From assembly GCF_000427465.1 (NCBI RefSeq), contig NZ_ATYB01000009.1:124001-188000 (forward strand): 64,000 nucleotides of DNA. The letters run 5' to 3'. The notes under the pieces are model-generated. The model ran no database searches. It was not told the DNA's origin and saw only the letters and a program-made list of their open reading frames with translations. The position numbers and the translations under genes are program-made. Below, one piece after another: positions 5,356 through 51,650 of this stretch. Source of the stretch: Sinorhizobium arboris LMG 14919 (GTDB taxonomy: Bacteria; Pseudomonadota; Alphaproteobacteria; Rhizobiales; Rhizobiaceae). Every line of letters starts with the position of its first letter. Within the stretch, counting starts at the first letter, position 1.

Positions 5356-6669
5356 TCAGTAAACGCTTTCGTAGGCCGCGCAGATCTCCGCCTGGGTCTT
5401 GCCCGCAAGATAACCTATCTCGCCCTCCTTATGCTTGACGTAGACGTCGGCAAAGCCTTCAGGGAACCAGCCGCACACCGTCGCATCGCCCTTGAAGCGC
5501 TCGAGGGCCGCTTCGAGTGTCTGCGGCAGGCGGACGTAGCCGCGGGCGGCAAGGTCCTCCGGGTCCAGGAGCGAGAGATCCTCCTGCGTCGCCTCCGGCA
5601 CCACCAGGCCCTCTTCAATGCCCTGTGCGCCGGCATGGACGATGGCCGCGAGGACAAGATGCGGATTGGCGGTTGCATCGGCGGCGCGGAACTCGAAGTT
5701 GAACTGTGCAGCACGGGCGATGTCGCTGATGTCGGAGACCGGGCAGATGCGCACCGATGCCTCGCGATCGCGAAAGCCGAGATTGTTGAAGGCCGCACTC
5801 CAGCGATGCGGCGTGAGGCGCAGGTAGGAGACCACGCTCGGCGCCGTGATCGCAATGATCGAATCGAGATATTTCAAAATGCCAGCAACGAACTTTCCCG
5901 CGACTTCGGAAAGCTCATGTTTGCCGTTCGGATCGTAGGTGACTGGGTTACCCGCCGCATCCAGCATGCTCAAATGCACATGCACACCGTTGCCGACGCC
6001 GGCCGGATCGCGGATCGGCGTGAACGTCGGTTCGTAGCGGAGCTCGCGGGCGACGAGACCCACGAGTTCGCGCGTGATCAAGGAATGGTCTGCGATGGTG
6101 ACGCCCTCCTGGGGACCCATCGTCACCTCGAACTGGCCTGTGCCGAATTCTTTCAGAATCGTGTCGGGCGTTACGCCCGCCTCGCGCATCGCCGCAATGA
6201 TCGCCTCGCAGAAATGCCGCTCCTGCTGAAATCCGCCGAGCGTAAAGGCTTTTCCGACGTCCGACACGAGATGCTTAAGCTGGAATTCATGCTCGAAGGC
6301 GCCGTAGAGTGTGACGCCTGCCACCCTGCGCAACCGCTGCAGGGCGGCCTCGAGGATCGAGCGTGTGCAGAATTCCCAGGGTCGACCGTCGGTGTAACGG
6401 ATGTTGCCGAGGACGAAATTCTCCTTCGGGGCTCCCTCCTCGGTTTCGACGCTGACGCAGGTTGACGGATCGGGAATGAGCACGAGGTCGCCGAGCGAGC
6501 CGAAAGGGCTTTCGGCAATTGCGTCAAAGCAGGTGATCTGCACATTTGTCGGCGTCCAGCCGACACCTCGCTTCAAGCGCTTGTCCATCTGCGCCAGCGG
6601 AAACGCCTTGCCGCGCACCTTGCCCGAGAGATCGCCGCAGCAGGCCACCATCATTTCCTCACGTTTCAT
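5356..6669 (-). CDS. Glutamine-synthetase-family ligase (possible gamma-glutamyl-amide synthetase)
   Basis: This is a 437-residue protein with the glutamine synthetase catalytic fold: metal ligands in GAFEHEFQL, GNGVHVHLSM for the central His pair, LRLTPHRWSAAFNN for the ATP/glutamate arginine, and FEFRAADATANPHLVLAAIV near the C-terminus. It belongs with the divergent GlnA-like ligases (PuuA, GlnT, GMA synthetase) that condense glutamate with ammonia or an amine, not with the housekeeping GlnA; I see no adenylylation-loop tyrosine that I can trust. The ATG at 6669 overlaps the end of the rpiR gene by 11 bases; an ATG at 6654 is an alternative. Co-transcription with an RpiR regulator and divergence from an amidase/transport operon suggest a catabolic gamma-glutamylation role, which is inference. 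Confidence 0.85.
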   Translation of the reverse strand: MKREEMMVACCGDLSGKVRGKAFPLAQMDKRLKRGVGWTPTNVQITCFDAIAESPFGSLGDLVLIPDPSTCVSVETEEGAPKENFVLGNIRYTDGRPWEFCTRSILEAALQRLRRVAGVTLYGAFEHEFQLKHLVSDVGKAFTLGGFQQERHFCEAIIAAMREAGVTPDTILKEFGTGQFEVTMGPQEGVTIADHSLITRELVGLVARELRYEPTFTPIRDPAGVGNGVHVHLSMLDAAGNPVTYDPNGKHELSEVAGKFVAGILKYLDSIIAITAPSVVSYLRLTPHRWSAAFNNLGFRDREASVRICPVSDISDIARAAQFNFEFRAADATANPHLVLAAIVHAGAQGIEEGLVVPEATQEDLSLLDPEDLAARGYVRLPQTLEAALERFKGDATVCGWFPEGFADVYVKHKEGEIGYLAGKTQAEICAAYESVY

Positions 6670-12857: not shown

Positions 12858-13886
12858 ATGAAACATTCCTTTCTCACCGCCCTCATCCTCATCGCCGTCA
12901 TCGCCATCATTGCCGTCGGCAGTCAGCTCCTCGGCATCCGCCTTTATGACCGTATCGCCACCAACCTGCTGATCTCGCTCGTCCTGGTCGTCGGACTGCA
13001 GACCTTCATGGGCAATTCCGGTCTGCTCTCCTTCGCCCACATCGGCTTCATGGGCCTCGGCGCCTATACGTCCGCGGTGCTCACCATTCCGACTCAGATG
13101 AAGGGCATGGCGCTGCCGGACCTCTACGAATTCATGAAGGTCGTGGAAGTTTCGCCGCTCCTCGCCATGGTCGCAGCGGGCATGCTGGCCGCCGTCGTCG
13201 CAGCCGTCGTCGCCTATCCGCTGATGCGGCTTTCGGATGCGGCGGCGGTGATCACCTCCTTCGCGCTGCTTGTCGTGCTCTACACGGTCATGAACAACTG
13301 GAGCGCCTTTACCAACGGCCCGCGCACGCTCTTCGGCCTGCCGAAGACGACGGACATGCCGGTGGCCGCCATCGTCGCGTCCATCGTCGTCCTCGTAGCG
13401 CTTGCTTTCAAGGAATCGCGTACCGGCAAGCTGCTGCGCGCCTCGCGGGAGGACGAGATCGCCGCAGCGGCGCTCGGTGCCGACATTCCGCACCTGCGCT
13501 GGCGTGCCTTCATCCTCGCTGCATTCATCGCCGGCATCGGCGGAGCACTGTGGGGACACTTCATCACCTCCTTTGCGCCGAAAGCCTTCTATCTCAAGGA
13601 GACGTTTCTCATCATCACCATGCTGGTGATCGGCGGCGCCAGCACGGTGACCGGCGCCGTGGCCGGCACGATCCTTATCACCTTCGCCTACGAGGGGCTG
13701 CGCGGCACGGAAGGCGCGCTCAACGCCACCGCCTTCGGCGCCGGTCAGGTCGTCGGCCTCACGGAAATCGTCCTCGCGCTCGCCATGATCGCCGTGATGA
13801 TCGTCAAGCCGGGCGGTCTCTTCCCGAACCGCGAGATAGGTCACATCCTCACCCGCGCCCGACGCAAGAAGGAGACAGTTGCATGA
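12858..13886 (+). CDS. Liv-type ABC transporter permease (LivM-like)
   Basis: This is a 342-residue membrane protein of the LivM class: LLISLVLVVGLQTFMGNSGL near the start, SFAHIGFMGLGAYTSAVL, the RASREDEIAAAALGADI coupling loop and a C-terminal GGLFP segment. It completes the importer with the LivH-like permease. Its stop codon overlaps the start of the second isochorismatase-family gene (ATGA), tying transport and hydrolysis into one operon. Confidence 0.94.
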   Translation: MKHSFLTALILIAVIAIIAVGSQLLGIRLYDRIATNLLISLVLVVGLQTFMGNSGLLSFAHIGFMGLGAYTSAVLTIPTQMKGMALPDLYEFMKVVEVSPLLAMVAAGMLAAVVAAVVAYPLMRLSDAAAVITSFALLVVLYTVMNNWSAFTNGPRTLFGLPKTTDMPVAAIVASIVVLVALAFKESRTGKLLRASREDEIAAAALGADIPHLRWRAFILAAFIAGIGGALWGHFITSFAPKAFYLKETFLIITMLVIGGASTVTGAVAGTILITFAYEGLRGTEGALNATAFGAGQVVGLTEIVLALAMIAVMIVKPGGLFPNREIGHILTRARRKKETVA

Positions 13887-14551
13887 GCTGGAAGACCGCC
13901 TACCGATCTTTCTACTATGCCGGTGCCGAGGAGCCGGACGACATCGTGCTCGATCCGGAGACGACGGCGCTGCTGGTCATCGACATTCAGAACACCTATC
14001 TCGATCCGAAGGATACGCCTGAGGAAACCGCCCGCTGGCAACCTTTCTACGAGCGCATGCGCGAGACGGTGATCCCGAACACGGCGCGGCTGATCGACGA
14101 ATGCCGCAAACGCAAGGTGGAGGTTATCTTCGCCCGCATCGCCTGCCTCAAGGCGGACGGTCGCGACCGGTCGCTGAGCCAGAAGAAGCCTGGCTTCAAC
14201 TACCTGCTTCTGCCGAAGGAGCTGCCGGAGGGCCAGGTCGTTCCGGAACTCGAACCGCGTAGCGACGAGATCGTCGTCACCAAGACGACAGACAGCGCGC
14301 TGACCGGTACGAACCTTCGCCTCATCCTTCACAATATGGGCATCAAGGATGTCATCTGCTGTGGCATCTTCACCGACCAGTGCGTCTCTTCGACGGTGCG
14401 CAGCCTTGCGGACGAAAGTTTCGGCGTGGTCGTCGTCGACGATTGCGGAGCCGCGGCGACGGACGATCTGCACCGGCGCGAACTGGAGATCATCAACATG
14501 ATCTACTGCCATGTCGTCTCGCTCGAAGAGCTTCTCACCTTTTTCAGATAG
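13883..14551 (+). CDS. Isochorismatase-family cysteine hydrolase (second copy)
   Basis: This is a 222-residue hydrolase with the triad Asp in ALLVIDIQNTYLD, Lys in IVVTKTTDSAL and Cys in GIFTDQCVSSTV. The ATG at 13883 follows GAAGGAGACAG and overlaps the permease stop. It resembles the copy at 8522 in length and motif layout (both keep ADGRDRSL or KDGRDRSL and then a GFN motif), so the two are clear paralogs kept at opposite ends of one operon. Possible activities are those of N-carbamoylsarcosine amidase, biuret hydrolase or related enzymes; nothing here decides among them. Confidence 0.9.
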   Translation: MSWKTAYRSFYYAGAEEPDDIVLDPETTALLVIDIQNTYLDPKDTPEETARWQPFYERMRETVIPNTARLIDECRKRKVEVIFARIACLKADGRDRSLSQKKPGFNYLLLPKELPEGQVVPELEPRSDEIVVTKTTDSALTGTNLRLILHNMGIKDVICCGIFTDQCVSSTVRSLADESFGVVVVDDCGAAATDDLHRRELEIINMIYCHVVSLEELLTFFR

Positions 14552-14570
14552 AGGAGAGGAGGATAGCGTC

Positions 14571-15884
14571 GTGCCCGGTCTCTACGCCCGCGAAAGCCGC
14601 TCGGTTTCCAAAATGGCGCACCTGCGGTTTTTTCCCCAGGCGGTCGTCGGCGGCAGCGGCGCCTATCTGACCACCGACGACGGGCGGCGGCTCCTCGATT
14701 TCTCCGCCTCCTGGGGCGCGGCGAGCCTCGGCCATTCCCATCCGGCGATCCGTGATGCGGTGGGCCGCGCGCTCTCCGATCAGGCGGGCGCGAGCTATCT
14801 TTCGTCGGCCAACGAGGCTTGCGTGCTGCTCGCCGAAAAGCTGCTTTCGCTCGTGCCGGAGCGCGCCCGCGGCCGTGTATGGTTCGGCCATTCCGGCTCC
14901 GACGCCAATGAGACGGTCGCCCGCATGGTCGTCGCGGCCACCGGCCGGCCGCGCATCCTTGCGTTCAACGGTGCCTATCACGGCGGCACCATCGGTTCCA
15001 TGGGCATTTCCGGCCATCCGGCACAACAGGGCGGCCGGGCAGAGGGCCTGACGCTCGTGCCCTACCCGAACTGCTATGCCGCCGGCAGCCCCGAGGTTGC
15101 AAGGGACGCCGCGCTCGCCCATCTCGAACGGCTCTTCGCGACCGGAGTGCCGCCGGAAGAGGTCGCAGCCTTCTTCATCGAGCCGATCCAGTCGGACGGC
15201 GGCATGCTTGTGCCGCCGGACGGATTCTTCAAAGCGGTGGAAGCGCTCTGCCGCAGGCACGGCATCCTGATCGTATCGGACGAAGTGAAGGTGGGACTCG
15301 GCCGCAGCGGCCGCTTCAACGCCTTCGAGCATTCCGGTATCGAGCCCGACATCGTCGTCTTCGGCAAGGGTCTTGGCGGCGGCCTGCCGATATCCGCAGT
15401 GGTCGGCCCGGAAACCATCATGAACCACAGCGTTGCCTTCTCACTGCAAACCGTGCACGGCAATCCGGTCTGCGCGGCCGCCGCGCTGGCCGTATTGCAG
15501 ACCATAGAGCGCGACCACCTCATCGAGAATGCGGAAAGAAGCGGCAAGCTGCTGCGCGAGTCGCTTGAACGCCTTGCTGCCCGCCATGCGCTGATCGGCG
15601 ATGTGCGCGGCCGCGGCCTCGCCCTTGGCGTCGAACTCGTGGCCGATCTCGCCAGCCGCGAACCGGCTTCGCGTCAGGCGGCACTCACCGTCTACCGGGC
15701 CTTCCAATTGGGCCTCGTACTCTATTACGTCGGCGTGCGCTCCAACGTACTCGAACTCACGCCGCCGCTGACATTGACACAGGCGGAGGCCGAAGCGGGT
15801 GTCGCCATGCTCGACCGGGCGCTCACCGATGTCGCGGCCGGGCGAGTCGACGATGACTTGCTTGGAGATTTCGCGGGCTGGTAA
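14571..15884 (+). CDS. Class III pyridoxal-phosphate aminotransferase
   Basis: This is a 437-residue class III (ornithine/omega-amino-acid type) aminotransferase: GSDANETVARMV for the phosphate pocket, AYHGGTIGSMGISGHP, the cofactor Asp in LIVSDEVKVGLGR, and the Schiff-base Lys in VVFGKGLGGGLPISAV. The GTG at 14571 is preceded by the strong AGGAGAGGAGG site; upstream in-frame codons lie inside the previous gene. It is the last gene of the amidohydrolase/Liv operon and probably transaminates the amine freed by the hydrolases. Two hairpins follow it. Confidence 0.9.
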   Translation: MPGLYARESRSVSKMAHLRFFPQAVVGGSGAYLTTDDGRRLLDFSASWGAASLGHSHPAIRDAVGRALSDQAGASYLSSANEACVLLAEKLLSLVPERARGRVWFGHSGSDANETVARMVVAATGRPRILAFNGAYHGGTIGSMGISGHPAQQGGRAEGLTLVPYPNCYAAGSPEVARDAALAHLERLFATGVPPEEVAAFFIEPIQSDGGMLVPPDGFFKAVEALCRRHGILIVSDEVKVGLGRSGRFNAFEHSGIEPDIVVFGKGLGGGLPISAVVGPETIMNHSVAFSLQTVHGNPVCAAAALAVLQTIERDHLIENAERSGKLLRESLERLAARHALIGDVRGRGLALGVELVADLASREPASRQAALTVYRAFQLGLVLYYVGVRSNVLELTPPLTLTQAEAEAGVAMLDRALTDVAAGRVDDDLLGDFAGW

Positions 15885-16006
15885 CTGATCCGCACTCAAC
15901 GTCGGCACGGCGATGCCGCTGCTGATTATCGCGCGGTGTGCAAGGCAGGTTGACCCTCGCACATTTGCGAGCAGGCGTGATGGCGTTCCTCCCTACCGAA
16001 TGACGA

Positions 16007-16031
16007 ACCCGCGGCCGATCCGGCCGCGGGT
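16007..16031 (+). terminator. Rho-independent-like terminator of the transport operon
   Basis: Ten-base arms ACCCGCGGCC and GGCCGCGGGT are separated by GATCC and followed by TCTTCTC. It lies between the convergent aminotransferase and dctP genes. Confidence 0.65.
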
Positions 16032-16048
16032 CTTCTCTAAATAGTGAG

Positions 16049-16076
16049 CAAGGCCACGTTCCGGAACGCGGCCTTG
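16049..16076. terminator. Second convergent-gene hairpin
   Basis: CAAGGCCACGTTCC (16049-16062) is followed at once by GGAACGCGGCCTTG, a 14-base arm pair with one mismatch, then TCTTTTGTTT on the plus strand. It lies nine bases beyond the dctP stop and may act in both directions. Confidence 0.6.
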
Positions 16077-16084
16077 TCTTTTGT

Positions 16085-17089
16085 TTACTTGCGGATCTCT
16101 TCCAGCTTGGCGAGAATACCGTCTACCACGTCGGCACCGATCGCAGCCTTGTGCTTTTCATAGACGACCATGGACTTCTCGCGGATACGAGCCTGTTCTT
16201 CAGGAGACAAGGCGTTCACCTCGAGGCCGGCTTCCTTGATCTTTTCCAGCGACTTCTTGTTGAGGTCCTGGATCACCTTGCGCTCTTCGTCGCGACCGAC
16301 GACTGCACATTCACGCAGTGCTGCCTGCTCTTCCGGCGTATAGCTGTCGAAGATCGGCTTCGAGAACAGGAAGAGGAAGGGCGTGTAAGCGTGGTTCGTT
16401 TCAGTGACGTACTTCTGCACTTCGAAGAACTTCGAGGTATCGATCGTCACATAAGGGTTTTCCTGCGCGTCGATCGCCTTGGTTTCGAGCGCCGAGAAGA
16501 CTTCGCCGAAGGCCATCGGAGTGGCGTTGGCACCGAGGTTCTGGAAGGTGTCGAGGAAGATGTTGTTCTGCATCACGCGAACCTTCATCCCTTCGAAATC
16601 TTCCCACTTGGTGACCGGACGAACCGAGTTCGACAGGTTACGGAATCCGTTTTCCCAATAGGCGAGATTGACCAGGCCGGCAGCTTCCAGCTTCTCGTTC
16701 ATCATGTCGCCGAAATCGCCATCGAGCACCGTGTAGGCTTCCTGAGCGTTGGCGAAGAGGAACGGCAAGTCGAAGACGCCGAGTGCCGGGATGATGCCGA
16801 CGAGCGGCGAGGACGACGTCACGACGGCCTCCTGCACGCCGGAGCGCAGGGCCTGCGTTGCCTGAAGGTCGCCACCGAGCGCGCCGCCCCAGAAAGCGGT
16901 AAGCTTCAGCTTGCCGCCCGACTTCTGATCGAGGCAGGCTTGCATCGCCTTGATGCCGTTGCCAACCGGATGGTCTTCGTTGATGCCGTTGGACACGCGG
17001 ATGTTGCGGTCGTTGAACTCGGCGAAAGCCGGAGCCGCGGCCGAAAGGCCGAAAGCGATGGCAGTCGTGGCAAGGAGCAGTTTTCTCAC
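16085..17089 (-). CDS. TRAP transporter substrate-binding protein (DctP family)
   Basis: This is a 334-residue periplasmic receptor with a signal peptide cut near residue 23 (GLSAAAPAFA), the GVFDLPFLFANAQEAY segment and MKVRVMQNNIF, whose Arg normally salt-bridges the ligand carboxylate, then GEVFSALETKAIDAQENP. DctP proteins bind organic acids, and here the neighbours point to a sugar acid. It is the last gene of the minus-strand unit FAH-dctQ-dctM-dctP. Confidence 0.94.
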   Translation of the reverse strand: MRKLLLATTAIAFGLSAAAPAFAEFNDRNIRVSNGINEDHPVGNGIKAMQACLDQKSGGKLKLTAFWGGALGGDLQATQALRSGVQEAVVTSSSPLVGIIPALGVFDLPFLFANAQEAYTVLDGDFGDMMNEKLEAAGLVNLAYWENGFRNLSNSVRPVTKWEDFEGMKVRVMQNNIFLDTFQNLGANATPMAFGEVFSALETKAIDAQENPYVTIDTSKFFEVQKYVTETNHAYTPFLFLFSKPIFDSYTPEEQAALRECAVVGRDEERKVIQDLNKKSLEKIKEAGLEVNALSPEEQARIREKSMVVYEKHKAAIGADVVDGILAKLEEIRK

Positions 17090-43249: not shown

Positions 43250-44200
43250 ATGGAACGTGTTGTGGACGCGGCAATCGTCGGCGCTGGTATTGCGGGTCTA
43301 AGCGCCGCTTTGTTCCTCGGAAGAGCGGGCCGTTCCGCGATCGTATTTGATGGAGGCCCAAGCCGAATCGAAAGCGTCGGGGAAGTTCGCGAATATCTCG
43401 GTTTCGATGGTTTGCCGCCCCGGGAGCTTCTTTCCCGTGCCCGCGCCGAGGTTCACGGGTATGGGATCGGGATCAAACGTCACCGGGTATCCTCCGTGAC
43501 GCCGCAGGCCGACGGGCTTTTCGAGGTGCAACACGGCCATTCGGTAACGTTTGCCCGTACAGTTGTTCTTGCGACCGGGCTGATCGACAAGCTGCCTCCG
43601 CTTTCGGGATTACCTAAGGTCTGGGGTCGAGATCTTCGCGTCTGTCCGTGCTTCGATGGTTATGAGGTGCAAGGAAAGCGCTTCGTCGTCTTCGGCGTGC
43701 CGAAGAGGCTGGTCCACATGGCATCGTGGGTTTGGATGTGGTCTCGCGATGTGACGGTGGTTTCGCAGCATGCATTCACGGATACCGAGCTCGAACGGCT
43801 GCGGCTTCTGGACATCGACGTGATAGCCGACGAGGTGACGGGACTGGTTCACAGCGGCGAGCGACTTGAAGCGCTCATGACACGCAAGGGCAAATCGATC
43901 GCCTGCGACGCCGCATGGATTGCCGCTGACATGGTAGCGGCCTCCGAACTCGCCGCACACCTGTGCGATGTCGACGAAATGGGACTGGCGCGGGTCGACG
44001 GCGCCGGCCGGACAAGCAGACCGGGGATTTTCGCCGTCGGAAACGCTGCAGATCCTGCCGCGCATCTCGCGCATGCATCCGCCGCCGGCACCAATGTCGG
44101 CCCGCATATCGTCATGTACCTGCTGGAGAGAGAAATCGAACGGCGGAAATTCAGCCGGAAGGATGCACATCCGGCCGACATTTCCCAGAGAGTGTCATGA
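43250..44200 (+). CDS. Thioredoxin-reductase-like FAD/NAD(P) oxidoreductase lacking a CxxC
   Basis: This is a 316-residue flavoprotein of the thioredoxin reductase fold: FAD motif AAIVGAGIAGLSAALFLGRAG, the TGL(I/V)DKLP segment, and a C-terminal GIFAVGNAADPAAHLAHA. Where true thioredoxin reductase has CATCDG, this one reads VCPCFDGYE, with the two Cys only one residue apart, so a normal disulfide-exchange centre is absent. Relatives annotated as NAD(P)/FAD-dependent oxidoreductases often pair with Rrf2 or thiol regulators, and the next gene here is an Rrf2 regulator overlapping by ATGA. The ATG at 43250 follows GGAGCGAG. Function uncertain. Confidence 0.85.
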   Translation: MERVVDAAIVGAGIAGLSAALFLGRAGRSAIVFDGGPSRIESVGEVREYLGFDGLPPRELLSRARAEVHGYGIGIKRHRVSSVTPQADGLFEVQHGHSVTFARTVVLATGLIDKLPPLSGLPKVWGRDLRVCPCFDGYEVQGKRFVVFGVPKRLVHMASWVWMWSRDVTVVSQHAFTDTELERLRLLDIDVIADEVTGLVHSGERLEALMTRKGKSIACDAAWIAADMVAASELAAHLCDVDEMGLARVDGAGRTSRPGIFAVGNAADPAAHLAHASAAGTNVGPHIVMYLLEREIERRKFSRKDAHPADISQRVS

Positions 44201-44634
44201 GAATCGACAGCCGCTTGTCCCGCATGCTGCACGTCCTGCTGCACATGGCGCGCCATGATCGTCCCTACACGTCCGAGCAGATTGCCGGAATGCTTCAGAC
44301 GAACGCTGTTGTCGTACGCCGGACCATGGCCGGCTTGCGCGCCCACGGCTATGTTCGATCCGTCACCGGACAGGGTGGCGGCTGGACGATCGCCTGCGAC
44401 CTCAACAGAACGACCCTGCTGGACATTCATCGGGCGGTTGGCGGCCGTCATATCTTCGCGATTGGCATCGACAACGCCAATCCATCCTGCGCGGTCGAAC
44501 GGGTCGTCAACAGCTCAGTCGCGGATGCGCTCAATCAGGCCGAACGGCTGCTGATGGGTAGACTGGGCGAGATCACACTCGCCGACCTGGCGGAAGAGTT
44601 CGATGCCATCTGCCGAGCCGAACTCAAACAGTAG
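44197..44634 (+). CDS. Rrf2-family transcriptional regulator
   Basis: This is a 145-residue regulator with an N-terminal winged helix (TSEQIAGMLQTNAVVVRRTM, LRAHGYVRSVTGQGGGWTIA) typical of Rrf2. Only one Cys is in the usual cluster region (NANPSCAVERVV), so it lacks the three-Cys Fe-S set of IscR and NsrR and resembles the CymR/YwgB-like subgroup. It is coupled to the flavoprotein upstream. The palindrome at 43178 is its likely target. Confidence 0.9.
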   Translation: MRIDSRLSRMLHVLLHMARHDRPYTSEQIAGMLQTNAVVVRRTMAGLRAHGYVRSVTGQGGGWTIACDLNRTTLLDIHRAVGGRHIFAIGIDNANPSCAVERVVNSSVADALNQAERLLMGRLGEITLADLAEEFDAICRAELKQ

Positions 44635-44841: not shown

Positions 44842-46935
44842 ATGTCCCGAGACCCCCGCTTCGATATTCTTTTCGAACCCGTCAAGATCGGGCCGGTCAC
44901 GGCCCGCAACCGCTTCTACCAGGTGCCCCACTGTTCCGGCATGGGCTACCGCTATCCCAATGCGGAGGCCCATCTGCGCGGCATGAAGGCGGAAGGCGGC
45001 TGGGCCGTCGTTTCGACCCAGGAGGCGGAAATCCACCCGACATCGGACCTGACGCCAGCCAACGAAGCCCGCCTTTGGGACGACGGCGACCTCCCTGCCC
45101 TTTCCGCCGTCACCGAGCGCATCCACGCCCATGGCAGCCTCGCCGCGATCCAGCTCGTGCACAACGGCCTGCACGTCGCCAACCGTTTCAGCCGGATGAT
45201 TCCGCTCGCTCCTTCGCACGCCGTCAGCGACAGCCTCGATCCGGTCCAGGCGCGCGCAATGGACAAGGCCGACATCGCCGACATGCGCCGTTGGTACCGC
45301 AATGCCGCGCTGCGTGCCAAAAGGGCCGGCTTCGACATCATCTACCTCTATGCCGGCCACGACATGAGCGTGTTGCAGCACTTCCTGTCCCGCCGCCATA
45401 ATGCCCGCAGCGACGAATATGGCGGCTCCTTCGAAAACCGGCTCCGTCTGTTCCGGGAGATTCTCGACGATGTGCGCGACGCGATCGGCGACACCTGCGC
45501 GCTCGCGGTGCGCCTTGCCGTCGACGAACTGATGGGCCCTTTCGGCATCACCTGGGAGGGGGAAGGCCAAGACATCATCTCGGCGCTTGGCGAGCTTCCC
45601 GACCTTTGGGACGTCAACCTCTCCGACTGGTCGAACGACAGTCAGACGGCTCGCTTCTCCGAGGAAGGCTACCAGGAGCCCTATATCCGCTTCGTCAAAT
45701 CCGTCACGACCAAGCCGGTGGTCGGCGTCGGCCGCTATACGTCTCCGGACAGCATGGTGCGGGCGATCAAGCAGGGCATTCTCGACTTCATCGGCGCCGC
45801 GCGCCCGTCGATTGCCGATCCCTACCTGCCGCAGAAGATCGAGGAGGGCCGCATCGATGACATCCGCGAATGCATCGGCTGCAACATCTGCACCTCCGGC
45901 GACAACACGAACGTACCGATGCGCTGCACGCAGAACCCGACGATTGGCGAGGAGTGGCGCAAGGGCTGGCATCCGGAGATCATCGCGAAGTCGGAAACCC
46001 CCGAACCCGCCCTCGTGATCGGCGGCGGACCCGCGGGCCTCGAAGCGGCACGCGCGCTCGCCCAGCGGGGCGTCGATGTCGTGCTGGCGGAGGGCGGCGG
46101 CGAATGGGGCGGCCGCGTCGCGCGCGAATGCCGGCTGCCCGGCCTGGCGACCTGGGGCCGCGTGCGCGACTGGCGCGTGAGCCAGCTCAGCACCCGCGTC
46201 AACGCCGAGCTTTACCTGCACAGCCTGCTTTCGGCTTCCGACGTGCTGCAATACGGCATCCCCCATGTGGCAATCGCGACGGGCGCGAACTGGCGCACCG
46301 ACGGCGTCGGCCGCACCCACCGGGTGCCGCTCGACTTTCTGTCGGCAGGTACCCTCGTCTCTCCCGATGCCATCCTTTCCGAGGGCGCCCGGGCGGTGCC
46401 CACCGACGGGCCTGTCATCGTCTTCGACGACGATTGCTTCTACATGGGCAGCGTGCTCGCCGAATTGCTCGCCAGGGCCGGCCGCATGGTTATCTTCGTG
46501 ACGCCCGAATGCCAGGTTTCCCCCTGGAGTAAAAACACGCTGGAACAGGGACGCGTCCAAAAGCGCCTCATTGACCTCGGTGTCGAAATCATCACGGCCA
46601 TGGCCCTTGCCGATCGCACGAAAGACCGGCTCGAACTATCATGCGTCTACAGCGGCAGGACCCGCCCGGTGGAGTGCGCCGCTCTCGTCCCAGTCACCGC
46701 CCGCCTGCCGGACGAGACCCTGTGGCTGGAACTCAAGGCCCGCGAAGACGAGTGGGCTGACGCCGGCATCAAGAGCGTGACCCGCCTCGGCGACTGCCTC
46801 GCGCCAGGGCTGATTGCAGCCGCCGTCTATTCTGGCCATCAATATGCCCGGACCTATCAGGAACAGGTCGACGTAGATCGAGCTCCGTTCCTGCGCGAAG
46901 ATATTGCGAGGCTTCATCGTCTGTGCTCGGCGTAG
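44842..46935 (+). CDS. Trimethylamine-dehydrogenase-family FMN/[4Fe-4S]/FAD demethylase (StcD/DgcA-like)
   Basis: This is a 697-residue protein with an old-yellow-enzyme FMN barrel and a C-terminal Rossmann half. The NRFYQVPHCSGMG motif keeps Cys31, matching the Cys that binds FMN covalently in trimethylamine dehydrogenase, and the [4Fe-4S] ligands sit in CIGCNICTSGD and MRCTQNP. The second nucleotide domain begins ALVIGGGPAGLEAARAL. Relatives demethylate di/trimethylamine, dimethylglycine or N-methylproline (stachydrine pathway). The ATG at 44842 follows AGGATGG; the longer frame adds 21 unlikely residues. It stands alone after the Rrf2 gene. The substrate is open, but it joins the methylated-amine theme at the left edge. 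Confidence 0.88.
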   Translation: MSRDPRFDILFEPVKIGPVTARNRFYQVPHCSGMGYRYPNAEAHLRGMKAEGGWAVVSTQEAEIHPTSDLTPANEARLWDDGDLPALSAVTERIHAHGSLAAIQLVHNGLHVANRFSRMIPLAPSHAVSDSLDPVQARAMDKADIADMRRWYRNAALRAKRAGFDIIYLYAGHDMSVLQHFLSRRHNARSDEYGGSFENRLRLFREILDDVRDAIGDTCALAVRLAVDELMGPFGITWEGEGQDIISALGELPDLWDVNLSDWSNDSQTARFSEEGYQEPYIRFVKSVTTKPVVGVGRYTSPDSMVRAIKQGILDFIGAARPSIADPYLPQKIEEGRIDDIRECIGCNICTSGDNTNVPMRCTQNPTIGEEWRKGWHPEIIAKSETPEPALVIGGGPAGLEAARALAQRGVDVVLAEGGGEWGGRVARECRLPGLATWGRVRDWRVSQLSTRVNAELYLHSLLSASDVLQYGIPHVAIATGANWRTDGVGRTHRVPLDFLSAGTLVSPDAILSEGARAVPTDGPVIVFDDDCFYMGSVLAELLARAGRMVIFVTPECQVSPWSKNTLEQGRVQKRLIDLGVEIITAMALADRTKDRLELSCVYSGRTRPVECAALVPVTARLPDETLWLELKAREDEWADAGIKSVTRLGDCLAPGLIAAAVYSGHQYARTYQEQVDVDRAPFLREDIARLHRLCSA

Positions 46936-47031
46936 GACGGTTTGCGGCGGCCAGGAGCGGATGAGGCATGCCGCGCAGGAACTGTCACCTGAAGTAGCTG
47001 CGAGGGATCAACTGTTCTTTTCGCACACGAC

Positions 47032-47670
47032 TTACCAGTTGATTATGCGGCGGGCGACAAGCCCCCCTGCAAGCGACAGGATTACGACTGCCATCGTGTA
47101 CCAGATTGCAACGAAAAGCGGAGAGTCATCCGTGCAGTGCGAAGCATAGAAAGCCGCCGCAACGCCGCCGGCGGCCAAGCCGGCAACCGCGCCCGCAAGC
47201 GCGGGATGTGACGGAGCTCCATGGCGCAGCGCCAGCAGCAGCAGAGCGAGCGGCCCGATGCCGATCAGCGGTATAAAGGTCAGGCACACGAGAGCGTTCG
47301 TTCCAAAGAGCTTCGGGAACCATGTGCTTGCCGGGACGGCAAAGAGCTCGGCGATAACCGCCAGTGCGATTAGTACCGGCGCGACCATCAGAGTGGGCAG
47401 CAAGTCGCGCGGCTCGGTTTCCGGCCGGGAGAGCGAGCGCAAGGCGCCAAGGCAGCTGACTGCAAGGACGATCGCCGCCACAATCTTGAACGGGAAGCGC
47501 AACGTCTGCATTGCGCTTGCAATATCCGGCCTCGGACCAAGGAAGGCGAAGAAGACACCTGCAGCGAGGGCGACGGCGAGGGCAATGGCGCCCGACCAGG
47601 CGACAGTCATCGGCATGCCGCTTCGCCGGTTGTCCGCAGCCAAGGCCTTGATGAGTTCCTGCGTTTCCAT
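47032..47670 (-). CDS. nrsF: NrsF-family (DUF1109) anti-sigma factor
   Basis: This is a 212-residue membrane protein with about six hydrophobic segments and the DUF1109 layout. Cys129 (NALVCLTF) and Cys179 (YASHCTDD) sit at nearly the same positions as the two periplasmic Cys reported essential for sensing in Caulobacter NrsF. It would hold the ECF sigma factor inactive until metal or oxidant stress. The ATG at 47670 lies just beyond the sigma stop codon (TGATATG), so the two are translationally coupled. The symbol is assigned by family and context. Confidence 0.88.
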   Translation of the reverse strand: METQELIKALAADNRRSGMPMTVAWSGAIALAVALAAGVFFAFLGPRPDIASAMQTLRFPFKIVAAIVLAVSCLGALRSLSRPETEPRDLLPTLMVAPVLIALAVIAELFAVPASTWFPKLFGTNALVCLTFIPLIGIGPLALLLLALRHGAPSHPALAGAVAGLAAGGVAAAFYASHCTDDSPLFVAIWYTMAVVILSLAGGLVARRIINW

Positions 47671-47671
47671 A

Positions 47672-48232
47672 TCACTTCCGTCCAAATCGCCTGGCGATGG
47701 CAGCAAGGCCGCGATGGAGCGCGACGCGAACCGCGGTTTCATTCATGTCGAGGCTTCTTGCAGCCTCGGCGATCGTGCGGCCCTCCACCGATATAGCAGT
47801 CACGACCGAGCGTTGGCCGGGCGTCAGCGCCTCGAGCGCGCGGCCAATCTCCCAGTCCCTGGCGGTTTCCGCCTCCTCTGTCACGAGAACGTCCTCGACC
47901 GCGTCGAGTCGCACGCGAGCATGGCGGCCATGCCGTCGCAAGGCATCCACGAGCTTATGCCTCGCGATGGCAAACAGCCAAGGCTTCACAGGTCCGTCGG
48001 TTCGCCAGGTATGGCGCTTCAAATGGACCGCCAGCAGTGTCTCCTGGACGACATCTTCGGGATCAAGGCCATTGGCCACTCTCCGGCGCGCCCAGATTCG
48101 AACAAGGGCAGCCGCGTTTTGCAGGAAATCGCTGTAGGCCTTCTCGTCGCCACCAAGCGACATACGAAGGAGCCGGGCGAGATCGCGGTCGTCAGCGCCG
48201 TTCACCTGCTCTTCCTTCCTATTCGCCGACAT
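47672..48232 (-). CDS. ECF sigma factor (SigF/NrsF-type)
   Basis: This is a 186-residue sigma-70 ECF protein: region 2 GLDPEDVVQETLLAVHLKRH and KPWLFAIARHKLVDALRR, region 4 ALTPGQRSVVTAISVEGRTI and SLDMNETAVRVALHRGLAA. Its genetic partner is the NrsF-like anti-sigma gene, and it diverges from the bufferin operon, the same arrangement as the Caulobacter SigF regulon. The start is ambiguous: ATG 48232 is used here, but a GTTACA/CGAA-like autoregulatory promoter overlaps that codon, and GTG 48205, behind AGGAAGAGCAG, may be the true start. Confidence 0.9.
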   Translation of the reverse strand: MSANRKEEQVNGADDRDLARLLRMSLGGDEKAYSDFLQNAAALVRIWARRRVANGLDPEDVVQETLLAVHLKRHTWRTDGPVKPWLFAIARHKLVDALRRHGRHARVRLDAVEDVLVTEEAETARDWEIGRALEALTPGQRSVVTAISVEGRTIAEAARSLDMNETAVRVALHRGLAAIARRFGRK

Positions 48233-48246
48233 TTGCCACTTGTTAC
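48222..48246 (-). promoter_or_regulatory. Candidate ECF autoregulatory promoter
   Basis: On the minus strand GTAACA (48246-48241) is followed after 15 bases by CGAA (48225-48222). It resembles the plus-strand site at 48375 but with one base less spacing, and it overlaps the annotated ATG, which is why the downstream GTG start is considered. Confidence 0.5.
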
Positions 48247-48374
48247 ATGCCCCCACGCGGCAAATGTTTGCCGCGCAGGCCGTGGGGCCGGAAGTATGCG
48301 TTCTTCCTAAATCTTCCCGCACCCGTCCTAAAATCAAACGTCACCGCGCTCACGAAAGCGTGTAGCGGTCGATT

Positions 48375-48400
48375 GTAACATCCCGCTCGGTGGCCGCGAA
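48375..48400 (+). promoter_or_regulatory. ECF sigma promoter of the bufferin operon
   Basis: GTAACA (48375-48380), 16 bases, then CGAA (48397-48400), 54 bases before the precursor gene. As I recall, the Caulobacter SigF promoter is described as GTAAC with CGAA at this spacing, so the local ECF factor probably drives the operon from here. Confidence 0.72.
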
Positions 48401-48453
48401 GGACGGACTGCGTGCCTATGCTAGGCGCACGCAGCAACGATGGAGGGAAGACC

Positions 48454-48777
48454 ATGACAACCAGAAGCTCGATCAACACGGCCATGCTTGCCGGCGCTGT
48501 GGCAACCGCGGTGTCGTCGCTCGCCATGGCCGCGCCGCTTTCGCAGGCCGAGGTCAAGGCCGCAATGGATGCAGGCAAGGAGAAGTGCTACGGCGTCGCG
48601 CTCAAGGGCCAGAATGATTGTGCAGCAGGCCCCGGCACGACCTGCCAGGCCACGTCGACTGTCGACTACCAAGGCAATGCCTGGAAATTCGTCGACGGCG
48701 GCACCTGCACGACTATGGAACTGCCGGGTGACCGCAAGGGCTCGCCGGAGCCGCTGACGCGCGATCTTCCATCTTAA
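48454..48777 (+). CDS. bufA1: Bufferin precursor peptide (DUF2282, BufA1-type)
   Basis: This is a 107-residue secreted precursor with a signal peptide cut after about residue 26 (AVSSLAMA), then the DUF2282 core with four Cys at 45 (GKEKCYGVA), 56 (GQNDCAAG), 64 (GTTCQATS) and 85 (GGTCTTM) and the [11 protein letters not shown] block. Bufferins are RiPPs whose core Cys are modified by a DUF692 enzyme to thiooxazoles and which bind copper in the periplasm. The ATG at 48454 follows GGAGGGAAGACC. It is the first gene of the operon, just downstream of the ECF promoter. Confidence 0.9.
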
Positions 48778-48805
48778 TCGGAACAGCCGGAAAGTGGAGG
48801 CGACA

Positions 48806-49732
48806 ATGCCGGAAGTGGCAATTCACGCTGATCGCGCCCCGCCAGAAGCGCTCCGCTTTCCGGCGCATCCGGTCGATGGACTGGCCGGAACCAGCTTTAA
48901 ACATCAGCATCTGCAGGACATTCTCGCCGACGGACCGGCTGGCGGCTTCTTCGAAGTTCATGCCGAAAACTATATGGGAGCCGGCGGCCCTCCGCATGCC
49001 GCGCTGACGAAGATACGCGAGGACTATCCGCTATCGCTTCATGGCGTGTGCATGTCGATCGGCGGACCGCAGCCGCTGGACAAAGGCCATCTCGGCCGCC
49101 TCGCTGCCCTCGTCCGCCGATACGAGCCGGCGCTCGTTTCGGAACATCTCGCCTGGTCTACGCACGACTCGACCTATTACAACGACCTATTGCCCTTGCC
49201 TTACACCGAGGCAAGCTTGCAGCGCGTGGCAGAACACATCGACGAGGTACAGGAGGCGATCGGACGGCCGCTCCTGCTTGAGAATCCCTCGACCTACCTG
49301 CTTTTCAGGGAATCGACGATGAGCGAAACGGCGTTCATCCGGGAACTGGTGAGGCGCACCGGCTGTGGCCTCTTGCTCGACATCAACAATGTCTTCGTTT
49401 CGGCCACCAACCATGGCTTTTGCGCCCTCGCCTATCTATCCGACTTTCCGCTGGCCCATGTCGGCGAGATTCACCTCGCCGGCCATACGGAGCAGGAGGA
49501 CGATGAAGGCGATCTGCTGTTGATCGACAGTCACGATGGGCCGGTCGCCGACGCGGTGTGGAAGCTCTTCGAGGTGGTGATCGCCCGACATGGCCCGACG
49601 CCTACGCTGATCGAATGGGATAGCGCTATTCCGGATTGGCCGGTGTTGAAACATGAGGCGAAGGCCGCCCAAATGCTCATGGACCGCCACGCCGCCGGCC
49701 TTCGACAGGAGACGTTGCATGGGCGCGGTTAG
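48806..49732 (+). CDS. bufB: DUF692 multinuclear iron-dependent oxidase (MNIO, BufB)
   Basis: This is a 308-residue TIM-barrel protein with the metal-ligand motifs of MNIOs in order: [57 protein letters not shown] and [11 protein letters not shown]. MNIOs use two or three iron ions and oxygen to oxidise Cys in precursor peptides; in bufferin loci they form thiooxazoles. It follows the precursor by 28 bases and overlaps the DUF2063 gene by 14. The ATG at 48806 after GGAGGCGACA is preferred to a GTG at 48794. Confidence 0.92.
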
Positions 49733-50540
49733 GGACTGTTTCTTGAAGCCGGCGGACGACCTCAACTATCCCGGAAGCTTCGTGGCCGGCCTGCTCGATC
49801 CCGCTTGTCCAACCCCGACGCTCCTTGCCGGCCCGCACGGCAAGGCGGCCGACAGGCGCTTCAACGTCTACCGCAACAATGTGACGGTAAGCCTTATGGA
49901 GGCGCTGGCTGCCACATTCCCGGCGACGAGGCGCATCACCGGCGAAGCATTCTTCCGTGCCATGGCCCGGTTCCATATCCGCGAGACGCCACCGAAATCG
50001 CCACTCCTCTTCGAATACGGCCAGGACTTTCCCGACTTCATAGAACGCTACGAATATGCCAAGCCGATGCCGTGGCTGGCCGATATCGCGCGGATCGAGC
50101 GCGCCTGGCTCGATGCCTATCATGCGCCGGACGCAGCCGTCCTGCTGCCGCAGGCGCTGGCAGCCGCTGAGCCCGCTGAACTTGCCGACCTCGTTTTCGA
50201 GCCGCATCCGGCGACCGGTCTGGTCCGCTCCTCCTATCCGGCCGTGACCGTGTTCTCTGCAAATCGCGGGGATGGTCCGGTCGGGCGCATCGAGGCCACG
50301 GCCCCGGAAACCGCGCTGATCACCCGCCCTGCGCTCGAGGTGGAGGTCCGCGCTCTTCCGCCGGAGGTCGGCATCTTCGTCGTCAGTCTCCTCGAAGGGG
50401 AGCCATTGGGCCGTGCCGCGGTCGCGGCGCAGGCTCGCCACCCCGGCTTCGATCTTGCTCCTGTCATCAGGATGATGCTGGAGGCCGGTGCTTTTGCCGC
50501 TATTGGCCATGGAGGACGAAAGGGCGATGTTGGGACGTAA
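49719..50540 (+). CDS. bufC: DUF2063 MNIO partner protein (BufC)
   Basis: This is a 273-residue protein with the N-terminal DUF2063 domain ([59 protein letters not shown]) and a C-terminal wing. In MNIO systems this partner carries a precursor-recognition element and delivers the peptide to the enzyme. It overlaps bufB upstream and the DoxX gene downstream, so all four genes are likely translated as a coupled unit. Confidence 0.9.
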
Positions 50541-51033
50541 CTTCCTCGACGGACACGAGAACGGGAAAAAGAGAAGCTTGCTCGGCCGAACCGACGGCAT
50601 GATCGCCGCCTTCGTCCCGGCGTCCTTGGCCCAACTCGCCTTACGCCTGGCGCTTGCCGTGCCCTTCTGGCGCTCTGGCATGGGCAAATGGGATGGTTTT
50701 CTTGAACTCAACGACGTTGCCCTTCTTCTGTTCACGTCGGAATTCCAGCTTCACCTGCCGGGCGGGCCATATCCGTTCCCGGCACCGGCGGTGACTGCCT
50801 TCATTGTCGCCTGCGCCGAGGTCTTGTTGCCCATCTTCCTGGTCCTGGGCTTGGCGACACGCCTTGCCGCGCTCGGGCTTCTCGCAATGACGATCGTGAT
50901 CCAGTTCACCATTCCGGACGGGTGGCCCATTCATCTGACCTGGGCTGCGATGGCTTTGGGCGTCATCGCCGCGGGTGCGGGGCGGCTGTCGCTTGACCAC
51001 TGGCTCATGACACCGGTTGCGCCCGGAAAATGA
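50527..51033 (+). CDS. bufD: DoxX-family membrane protein (BufD)
   Basis: This is a 168-residue DoxX protein with four hydrophobic segments (QLALRLALAVPFWRSGMGKW; VTAFIVACAEVLLPIFLVLG; RLAALGLLAMTIVIQF; a C-terminal one). DoxX proteins commonly close bufferin operons; their exact role is unknown. The ATG at 50527 follows GGACGAAAGGGCG and overlaps bufC by 14 bases. The C-terminus overlaps the frame of the decayed toxin on the other strand. Confidence 0.85.
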   Translation: MLGRNFLDGHENGKKRSLLGRTDGMIAAFVPASLAQLALRLALAVPFWRSGMGKWDGFLELNDVALLLFTSEFQLHLPGGPYPFPAPAVTAFIVACAEVLLPIFLVLGLATRLAALGLLAMTIVIQFTIPDGWPIHLTWAAMALGVIAAGAGRLSLDHWLMTPVAPGK

Positions 51034-51325
51034 GCAGCCGGAGTCTCGATCCGCACCGATCCGAGCCAGACAATCCGCCGCCGAGCGCGAACTGACGGCT
51101 GTGCCGATTCAGCTGATGCTTGCGCTTGTAGACCCGTAACGTGGTAGCCGAGACGCTTCTGGTGCCGGAACCCGGCTCGCTTCTACAACGCCAAGCCGTC
51201 GTGAATCCCCCGCCTTGAACGGCATCGACCCGTCGACCTACCGCCGCCGTCGGATTCTCGTTTTCGATGTAAGTGAAGATGGTGTCGCGATCGTCAAGCG
51301 CAAATCGCGCCCAGACGAGCCTCAT
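51005..51325 (-). pseudogene. Decayed RelE/ParE-family toxin
   Basis: A 106-codon frame starts like a ParE/RelE toxin (MRLVWARFALDDRDTIFTYI, then ENENPTAAV) but from about residue 31 loses all family resemblance, as expected after a frameshift or internal deletion. The ATG overlaps the antitoxin stop (ATGA), the normal toxin-antitoxin coupling. The end overlaps the DoxX gene, so the frame length is accidental. It is probably non-functional. Confidence 0.65.
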
Positions 51326-51624
51326 CGATCACCCGGCGCAGCCTTGCGCAAAGCTGCCGACCGGCGCTCTCGAAAGTGCGCATCGGCATCGTCGACGTCG
51401 GGTCGGGTATCCTCGAGTGCCCGCAGCACTTTGGCACGGAACCAAGCGTCGTGCGCCTCGCTGTGACTGAAGAGTTCCAGCGGCAGGGCGCCCTCATTCG
51501 CAGTCCGAGTCAACAGGATTCGAACAGCGTCCGAGACCGTCAGACCCATGTTCTCTAAAACCGCCGTGGCGCGCTCTTTGACCTCGGCATCGATCCGAGT
51601 CTGAACAAGTGCATTTGAAGCCAT
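51322..51624 (-). CDS. DinJ/RelB-family antitoxin
   Basis: This is a 100-residue protein with the ribbon-helix-helix opening MASNALVQTRIDAEVKERAT and the LGLTVSDAVRILLTR-like helix (here MGLTVSDAVRILLTRTANEG) of RelB/DinJ antitoxins. The ATG at 51624 is behind AAGGAG. The toxin partner just downstream appears broken, so this may be an orphan antitoxin that now only regulates its own promoter. Confidence 0.88.
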   Translation of the reverse strand: MASNALVQTRIDAEVKERATAVLENMGLTVSDAVRILLTRTANEGALPLELFSHSEAHDAWFRAKVLRALEDTRPDVDDADAHFRERRSAALRKAAPGDR

Positions 51625-51650
51625 GTGCAATCTCCTTCACCGCCAATGTA

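Follow-up and report, generated by a model that had tools for sequence, protein, structure and literature searches.

A probable Buf1 bufferin operon with an ECF16-type sigma factor/NrsF switch in Sinorhizobium arboris, counterpart of rpoE7-ecfR7 in Sinorhizobium meliloti

Background

In Caulobacter, the extracytoplasmic function (ECF) sigma factor gene sigF and the anti-sigma gene nrsF are found with CC3254-CC3257, which encode DUF2282, DUF692, DUF2063 and DoxX proteins under ECF/NrsF control (PMC3511200); statements on this and other published systems rest here on portions of the papers cited. The Caulobacter SigF regulon is raised by copper in all conditions tested, and a sigF::Tn5 mutant is Cu-sensitive (PMC8224329). 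The DUF2282 family includes the Buf1 bufferins, of which a characterised member improves growth in copper excess (PMC12452194). The gig operons of Cupriavidus metallidurans and Legionella, which we liken to these systems by description, have been described as bufferin gene clusters, and the C. metallidurans gig operon is raised by Au, Ag and Cu (PMC12452194, PMC8224329). In S. meliloti, a 2018 study placed the sigma factor RpoE7 in group ECF16 and reported that its overexpression raises four divergent genes as well as ecfR7, from ECF16-like promoters (PMC6180224). A later preprint cites that study among work linking MNIO clusters to stress (PMC12668002). Here we describe a six-gene locus of S. 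arboris LMG 14919, located at positions 47032-51033 of a 64,000-nucleotide stretch (contig NZ_ATYB01000009.1, positions 124,001 to 188,000), hereafter the window. We hold with good confidence that this locus corresponds to rpoE7-ecfR7 and is a Buf1 bufferin operon with a sigma/NrsF switch of ECF16 type of its own, copper being the most likely signal. This reading is not new, a close counterpart having already been described in S. meliloti; what we add is a promoter motif on both divergent sides of the locus.

Results

Six intact open reading frames fill positions 47032-51033, and each of the six encoded proteins scores above the cut-off of one or more Pfam families. The minus strand carries genes for an ECF sigma factor and an NrsF (DUF1109) protein, which diverge from DUF2282, MNIO (DUF692), DUF2063 and DoxX genes on the plus strand; frames and profiles agree in this with an earlier sequence-only reading, which had proposed a complete locus of this composition. 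On the minus strand, nrsF (47032-47670) encodes a 212-residue anti-sigma factor (PF06532, 177 bits, cut-off 27), and the sigma gene (47672-48205) encodes 177 residues from a putative GTG start, with matches to Sigma70_r2 and r4_2 and to NF009165 (232 bits, cut-off 198). On the plus strand, bufA (48454-48777) encodes a DUF2282 (Buf1) bufferin precursor of 107 residues (PF10048, 79.8 bits, cut-off 22.4), bufB (48806-49732) an MNIO maturase of 308 residues, bufC (49719-50540) a DUF2063 partner protein (PF09836, 89 bits, cut-off 27) and doxX (50527-51033) a DoxX membrane protein (PF07681, 61.5 bits, cut-off 23.6). BufB reaches 353 bits against its Pfam family, exceeds the curated NCBIfam cut-off for bufferin maturases (NF050167 MNIO_BufB, 383 bits, cut-off 310) and can be aligned to solved structure 3bww. 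Strong MNIO and DUF2282 matches had been foreseen, as had the tight packing of the genes: bufA and bufB are 28 bases apart, and bufB/bufC and bufC/doxX each overlap by 14 bases. No solved-structure match to the DUF2063 protein was found at E 0.001, and the precursor's single structure match, at E 0.084, was regarded as chance. The gene content also bears on whether the peptide is a metallophore for metal uptake or storage rather than detoxification, since the copper-acquiring methanobactins are likewise products of MNIO enzymes (PMC12452194). We consider such a role very unlikely, given that Buf1 helps growth in copper excess, that excess induces the Caulobacter operon (PMC12452194, PMC8224329) and that none of the four operon products is a TonB receptor or belongs to a known family of importers.

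The locus (~47030-51043) aligns at 85% nucleotide identity to positions 552134-556158 of S. meliloti 1021 pSymB (NC_003078), with protein identities of 78-95% (sigma factor, 89%). The NC_003078 record carries no annotation at the matching place. The rpoE7 promoter string in Table 1 of PMC6180224 is present there letter for letter, directly upstream of the sigma gene, so we take the pSymB copy to be rpoE7-ecfR7 with SMb20530-SMb20527. Both loci have the same six genes in the same divergent order with the motif on both sides, whereas their flanks differ. The S. arboris genome also has a second bufferin operon, some 26 kb from the first. Because the sigma factor is 89% identical to one placed in ECF16, we infer that it belongs to this group as well. 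A reading of it as a sulfite sigma factor (RpoE1/RpoE4) was dropped, as those belong to ECF26 and have another type of anti-sigma factor and another promoter (PMC6180224, PMC3511301, in the parts used).

In order to examine residue conservation, the precursor of the window was aligned with the best 120 of 7446 database relatives, and NrsF within the best 120 of 1798 relatives, window included; the resulting Cys counts cover the closest relatives and say little on distant ones. The precursor has exactly four Cys, at positions 45, 56, 64 and 85, as claimed from the sequence, and these are retained in 121/121 sequences. In NrsF, Cys129 and Cys179 are retained in 120/120, and a third Cys (73) in one of the 120. 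The 50 residues between Cys129 and Cys179 equal the distance between C131 and C181 of Caulobacter NrsF, bearing out the proposed match of the two pairs; in Caulobacter, Cys-to-Ser changes at this pair raise the regulon without stress (PMC3511200). Hydropathy gives six hydrophobic segments in NrsF, as also reported for the Caulobacter protein. Precursor residues 11-25 form one hydrophobic segment followed by AMA-AP, read by eye for the question of a Sec-type signal. Conversion of the Cys to thiooxazoles, named in the sequence-only reading, is reported for the two central Cys of Buf1 and not for all four, the outer two being reported as a disulphide (PMC12452194). Five of the 55 bufA loci compared below (L090, L091, L095, L100, L101) have tandem precursors, with two bufA genes whose central Cys spacing is 6 versus 7; in every other precursor of these loci, 7 residues separate the central Cys.

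ECF16-type motifs were found by pattern matching on both sides of the divergent intergenic region. TGTAAC-N16-CGAA lies at 48222-48247 on the minus strand, upstream of the sigma gene and at the same place as the published rpoE7 promoter string in S. meliloti, and TGTAAC-N17-CGAA lies at 48374-48400 on the plus strand, upstream of bufA. The window contains three matches to the TGTAAC/CGAA motif versus 0.17 expected, the third of which, at 6393, sits inside long frames. GTG 48205 is the probable start of the sigma gene: the motif covers the ATG upstream of it, and the pMl1 copy of S. meliloti is annotated as starting at the same residue.

For comparison, 59 stretches around neighbouring NrsF and DUF2282 matches were taken, most of them from a genome search; a related-locus search of contigs confirmed one locus. 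Pairs were made by eye among the matches listed and represent part of all pairs, and seven stretches (L111-L117) were placed by guess from the NrsF position alone. Four (L118-L121), where bufA does not lie close by in divergent orientation, were excluded before counting. In the remaining 55 loci plus the window, the exact TGTAAC form occurs at least once in 36/56 and on both sides in 20/56, and the reversed exact pattern, used as a control, in 0/56. The pattern was then relaxed to any first base with its place restricted, and L113, where no bufA was found, was dropped, giving 55 loci. The relaxed motif is present upstream of bufA in 53/55 NrsF-linked loci, 167-218 bases from the first Cys codon, on the opposite strand within 700 bases of that codon in 47/55, and on both sides in 45/55. 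Applied without the place limit, the relaxed pattern matches 42 of 2800 shuffled strands, and its reversed form 0/56 and 4/56 on the two strands. In one of the ten loci that lack a site by this pattern (L088, 727-2747, from a same-genus genome), both motifs are retained with about 2 kb between the divergent sites.

The relaxed motif was absent (0/20) from bufA loci of genomes with no detected NrsF, in a scan that scored up to ten candidates per genome and may have overlooked an NrsF. Among 20 bufA loci unlinked to NrsF it was present in six, and a division of these by eye into three groups placed all six in genomes with NrsF only elsewhere (6/7). Where a genome has a linked first copy, its second bufA copy lacked the motif (0/6, S. 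arboris included), as did the remaining unlinked loci (0/7), two of which have NrsF matches under the family cut-off; one strand was scored in all 40 control loci. The motif follows the presence of the NrsF switch, which supports the predicted control by the sigma factor. A genome-wide regulon drawn from the bare pattern TGTAAC-N15-17-CGWA was rejected (19 matches versus 65 for the reversed pattern); inspection of the 17 genome matches outside the locus covered their neighbouring frames.

The genome as a whole has a single NrsF match, and DUF2282 and MNIO are each matched twice. The second set, comprising bufA, bufB, bufC and doxX on the minus strand, lies on the same contig at a distance of about 26 kb (contig C3, ~201.5-204.1 kb; L005, ~13502-16095), with a BufB 50% identical over 285 residues and a BufA 51% identical over 43. 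No sigma or NrsF gene was recognised among the frames listed beside this operon, and it is without the ECF16 motif: its best position-model score is -0.8 versus a shuffle median of 3.6, under a model built from the exact matches, so that its scores are not independent. The second operon is followed by an NDH-2-like gene. Caulobacter, compared by description, also has a second operon (CC2907-2905), which is under sigma-F too, whereas the one here lacks the motif and has its own DoxX gene. We see about an even chance that these are two paralogous bufferin systems with split control, one in the ECF16/NrsF circuit and the other, without the motif, answering to another signal or constitutive. Rhizobial second copies would then be uncoupled from the sigma factor, unlike those of Caulobacter, and the pair may buffer copper at two levels, one basal and one for emergencies.

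Among 297 genomes of the window's family (Rhizobiaceae), NrsF is matched in 111 and DUF2282 in 157. By our own count, 37 of the best 120 of 7446 relatives of the precursor carry an NCBI name. The sequence-only reading held that such loci are rarely annotated in rhizobia, and this stands insofar as 23 of the 37 are still named DUF2282; it fails for the eight named 'BufA1 family periplasmic bufferin-type metallophore', six of them from Sinorhizobium, Ensifer or Rhizobium, and for the S. meliloti counterpart, which was studied as rpoE7.

Copies of the 4-kb cassette occur at 6006-9997 of L028 (pSymB), 6985-10994 of L029 (pMl1) and, internally deleted, within 1-5232 of L162 (pSymB of strain ml21). 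When the window is compared with L027 (Ensifer sp. USDA 6670), L028 and L029, the alignable block stops at the cassette edges or no more than about 30 bases from them, with the exception of a 78-base piece in L029. The pSymB and pMl1 copies are 98.7% identical over 3969 bases and have no further match in the 16-18 kb compared; plasmid pMl1 is typed as conjugative. To judge from these alignments, the 4-kb set has moved between replicons in S. meliloti. Past one edge, L027 and pSymB have about 1.06 kb in common, and near the opposite edge 126 bases; this speaks against a freely moving cassette, and the pair seems to have kept its place. A search for mobile-element end repeats gave only weak matches; one of them, an inverted pair of 17 bases at 46718 and 51472, lies outside the cassette and was regarded as chance. 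To the right of the locus, 51.9-58 kb of the window has matches in further replicons of S. meliloti, among them NC_003037, which we take to be pSymA. Just outside the cassette on this side is a RelB-type antitoxin gene (51325-51630, minus strand), beside a frame at 51005-51325 that has no Pfam match. To the left, on the plus strand, are genes for an Rrf2-type regulator (44158-44631) and for a large flavoprotein of the Oxidored_FMN (old yellow enzyme) type (44842-46932).

Strain ml21 has a whole pMl1 copy, but its pSymB locus is missing about 3 kb; the deletion begins within nrsF and stops close to the bufC end, so that a remnant of nrsF and doxX are what is left. This internal deletion, along with the reported lack of the locus in S. 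meliloti Rm41 and S. medicae (PMC6180224, in the part used), would fit a decaying or silent accessory island that is functionless in S. arboris. With six intact frames, conserved key residues and both promoter motifs retained, such decay is most improbable in this strain.

Discussion

By analogy with Caulobacter and S. meliloti, we propose that in unstressed cells the sigma factor is held by NrsF, a membrane protein with six segments. Metal stress in the envelope, with copper excess as the likeliest form, would alter Cys129/Cys179 and release the sigma factor, which would then read TGTAAC-N16/17-CGAA in both directions, raising its own operon and bufABC-doxX. BufB with BufC would convert the two central precursor Cys to thiooxazoles, and the peptide, its outer Cys joined as a disulphide, would leave by Sec and chelate copper in the periplasm. 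Sigma dependence, the copper signal, the chemistry and copper binding are all modelled on those two organisms. The metal-stress buffering suggested in the sequence-only reading accordingly divides: profiles, gene order, Cys residues and motifs favour a Buf1 operon under ECF/NrsF, and the copper role is carried over from Caulobacter.

Several observations weigh against this proposal. The DUF2063 protein scores 43 bits against NCBIfam HvfC (cut-off 142), the DoxX protein 62 bits against HvfX (cut-off 80) and the anti-sigma factor 94 bits against the NrsF equivalog NF042994, far under its cut-off of 300; because these cut-offs are missed, the three are regarded as relatives and not as the named equivalogs. 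One of the two motifs is absent, by the pattern used, in 10/55 loci. Promoter fusions in S. meliloti did not respond to H2O2, CdCl2 or K2CrO4, and copper is not among the agents named in the portion of that paper on which we draw (PMC6180224). A like cluster of C. metallidurans had no effect on Cu resistance (PMC8224329, likewise in part).

The signal is where the most serious alternative arises, namely that the same operon and switch respond naturally to envelope sulfur or oxidant stress (sulfite, hypochlorite, thiol-reactive agents), metal binding being secondary. Sulfur and oxidative stress have been linked with relatives of DoxX, and a YedY/MsrPQ pair belongs to the Caulobacter regulon (PMC3511200, PMC8224329, PMC12452194); the NrsF thiol pair could sense oxidants, and the failure of Cd and chromate to induce in S. 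meliloti (PMC6180224) is in keeping with such a signal. H2O2, however, was no inducer in the same study, the sigma-F genes of Caulobacter show no induction by generators of reactive oxygen species in the part of PMC3511200 used, and it is copper that induces the Caulobacter regulon and to which the sigF mutant is sensitive (PMC8224329). We therefore judge an oxidant or sulfur signal unlikely, and favour copper acting through the sigma/NrsF switch. In the literature, as far as titles and abstract openings go, we found no copper test of the rhizobial locus.

Conclusions

Knowledge of the bufferins themselves is unchanged by this analysis. It links S. meliloti RpoE7, for which the inducer was not found, to the bufferin family, and copper induction would be a simple test of that link. 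With the promoter motif, in turn, one can test by sequence which bufferin operons of rhizobia may answer to the switch.

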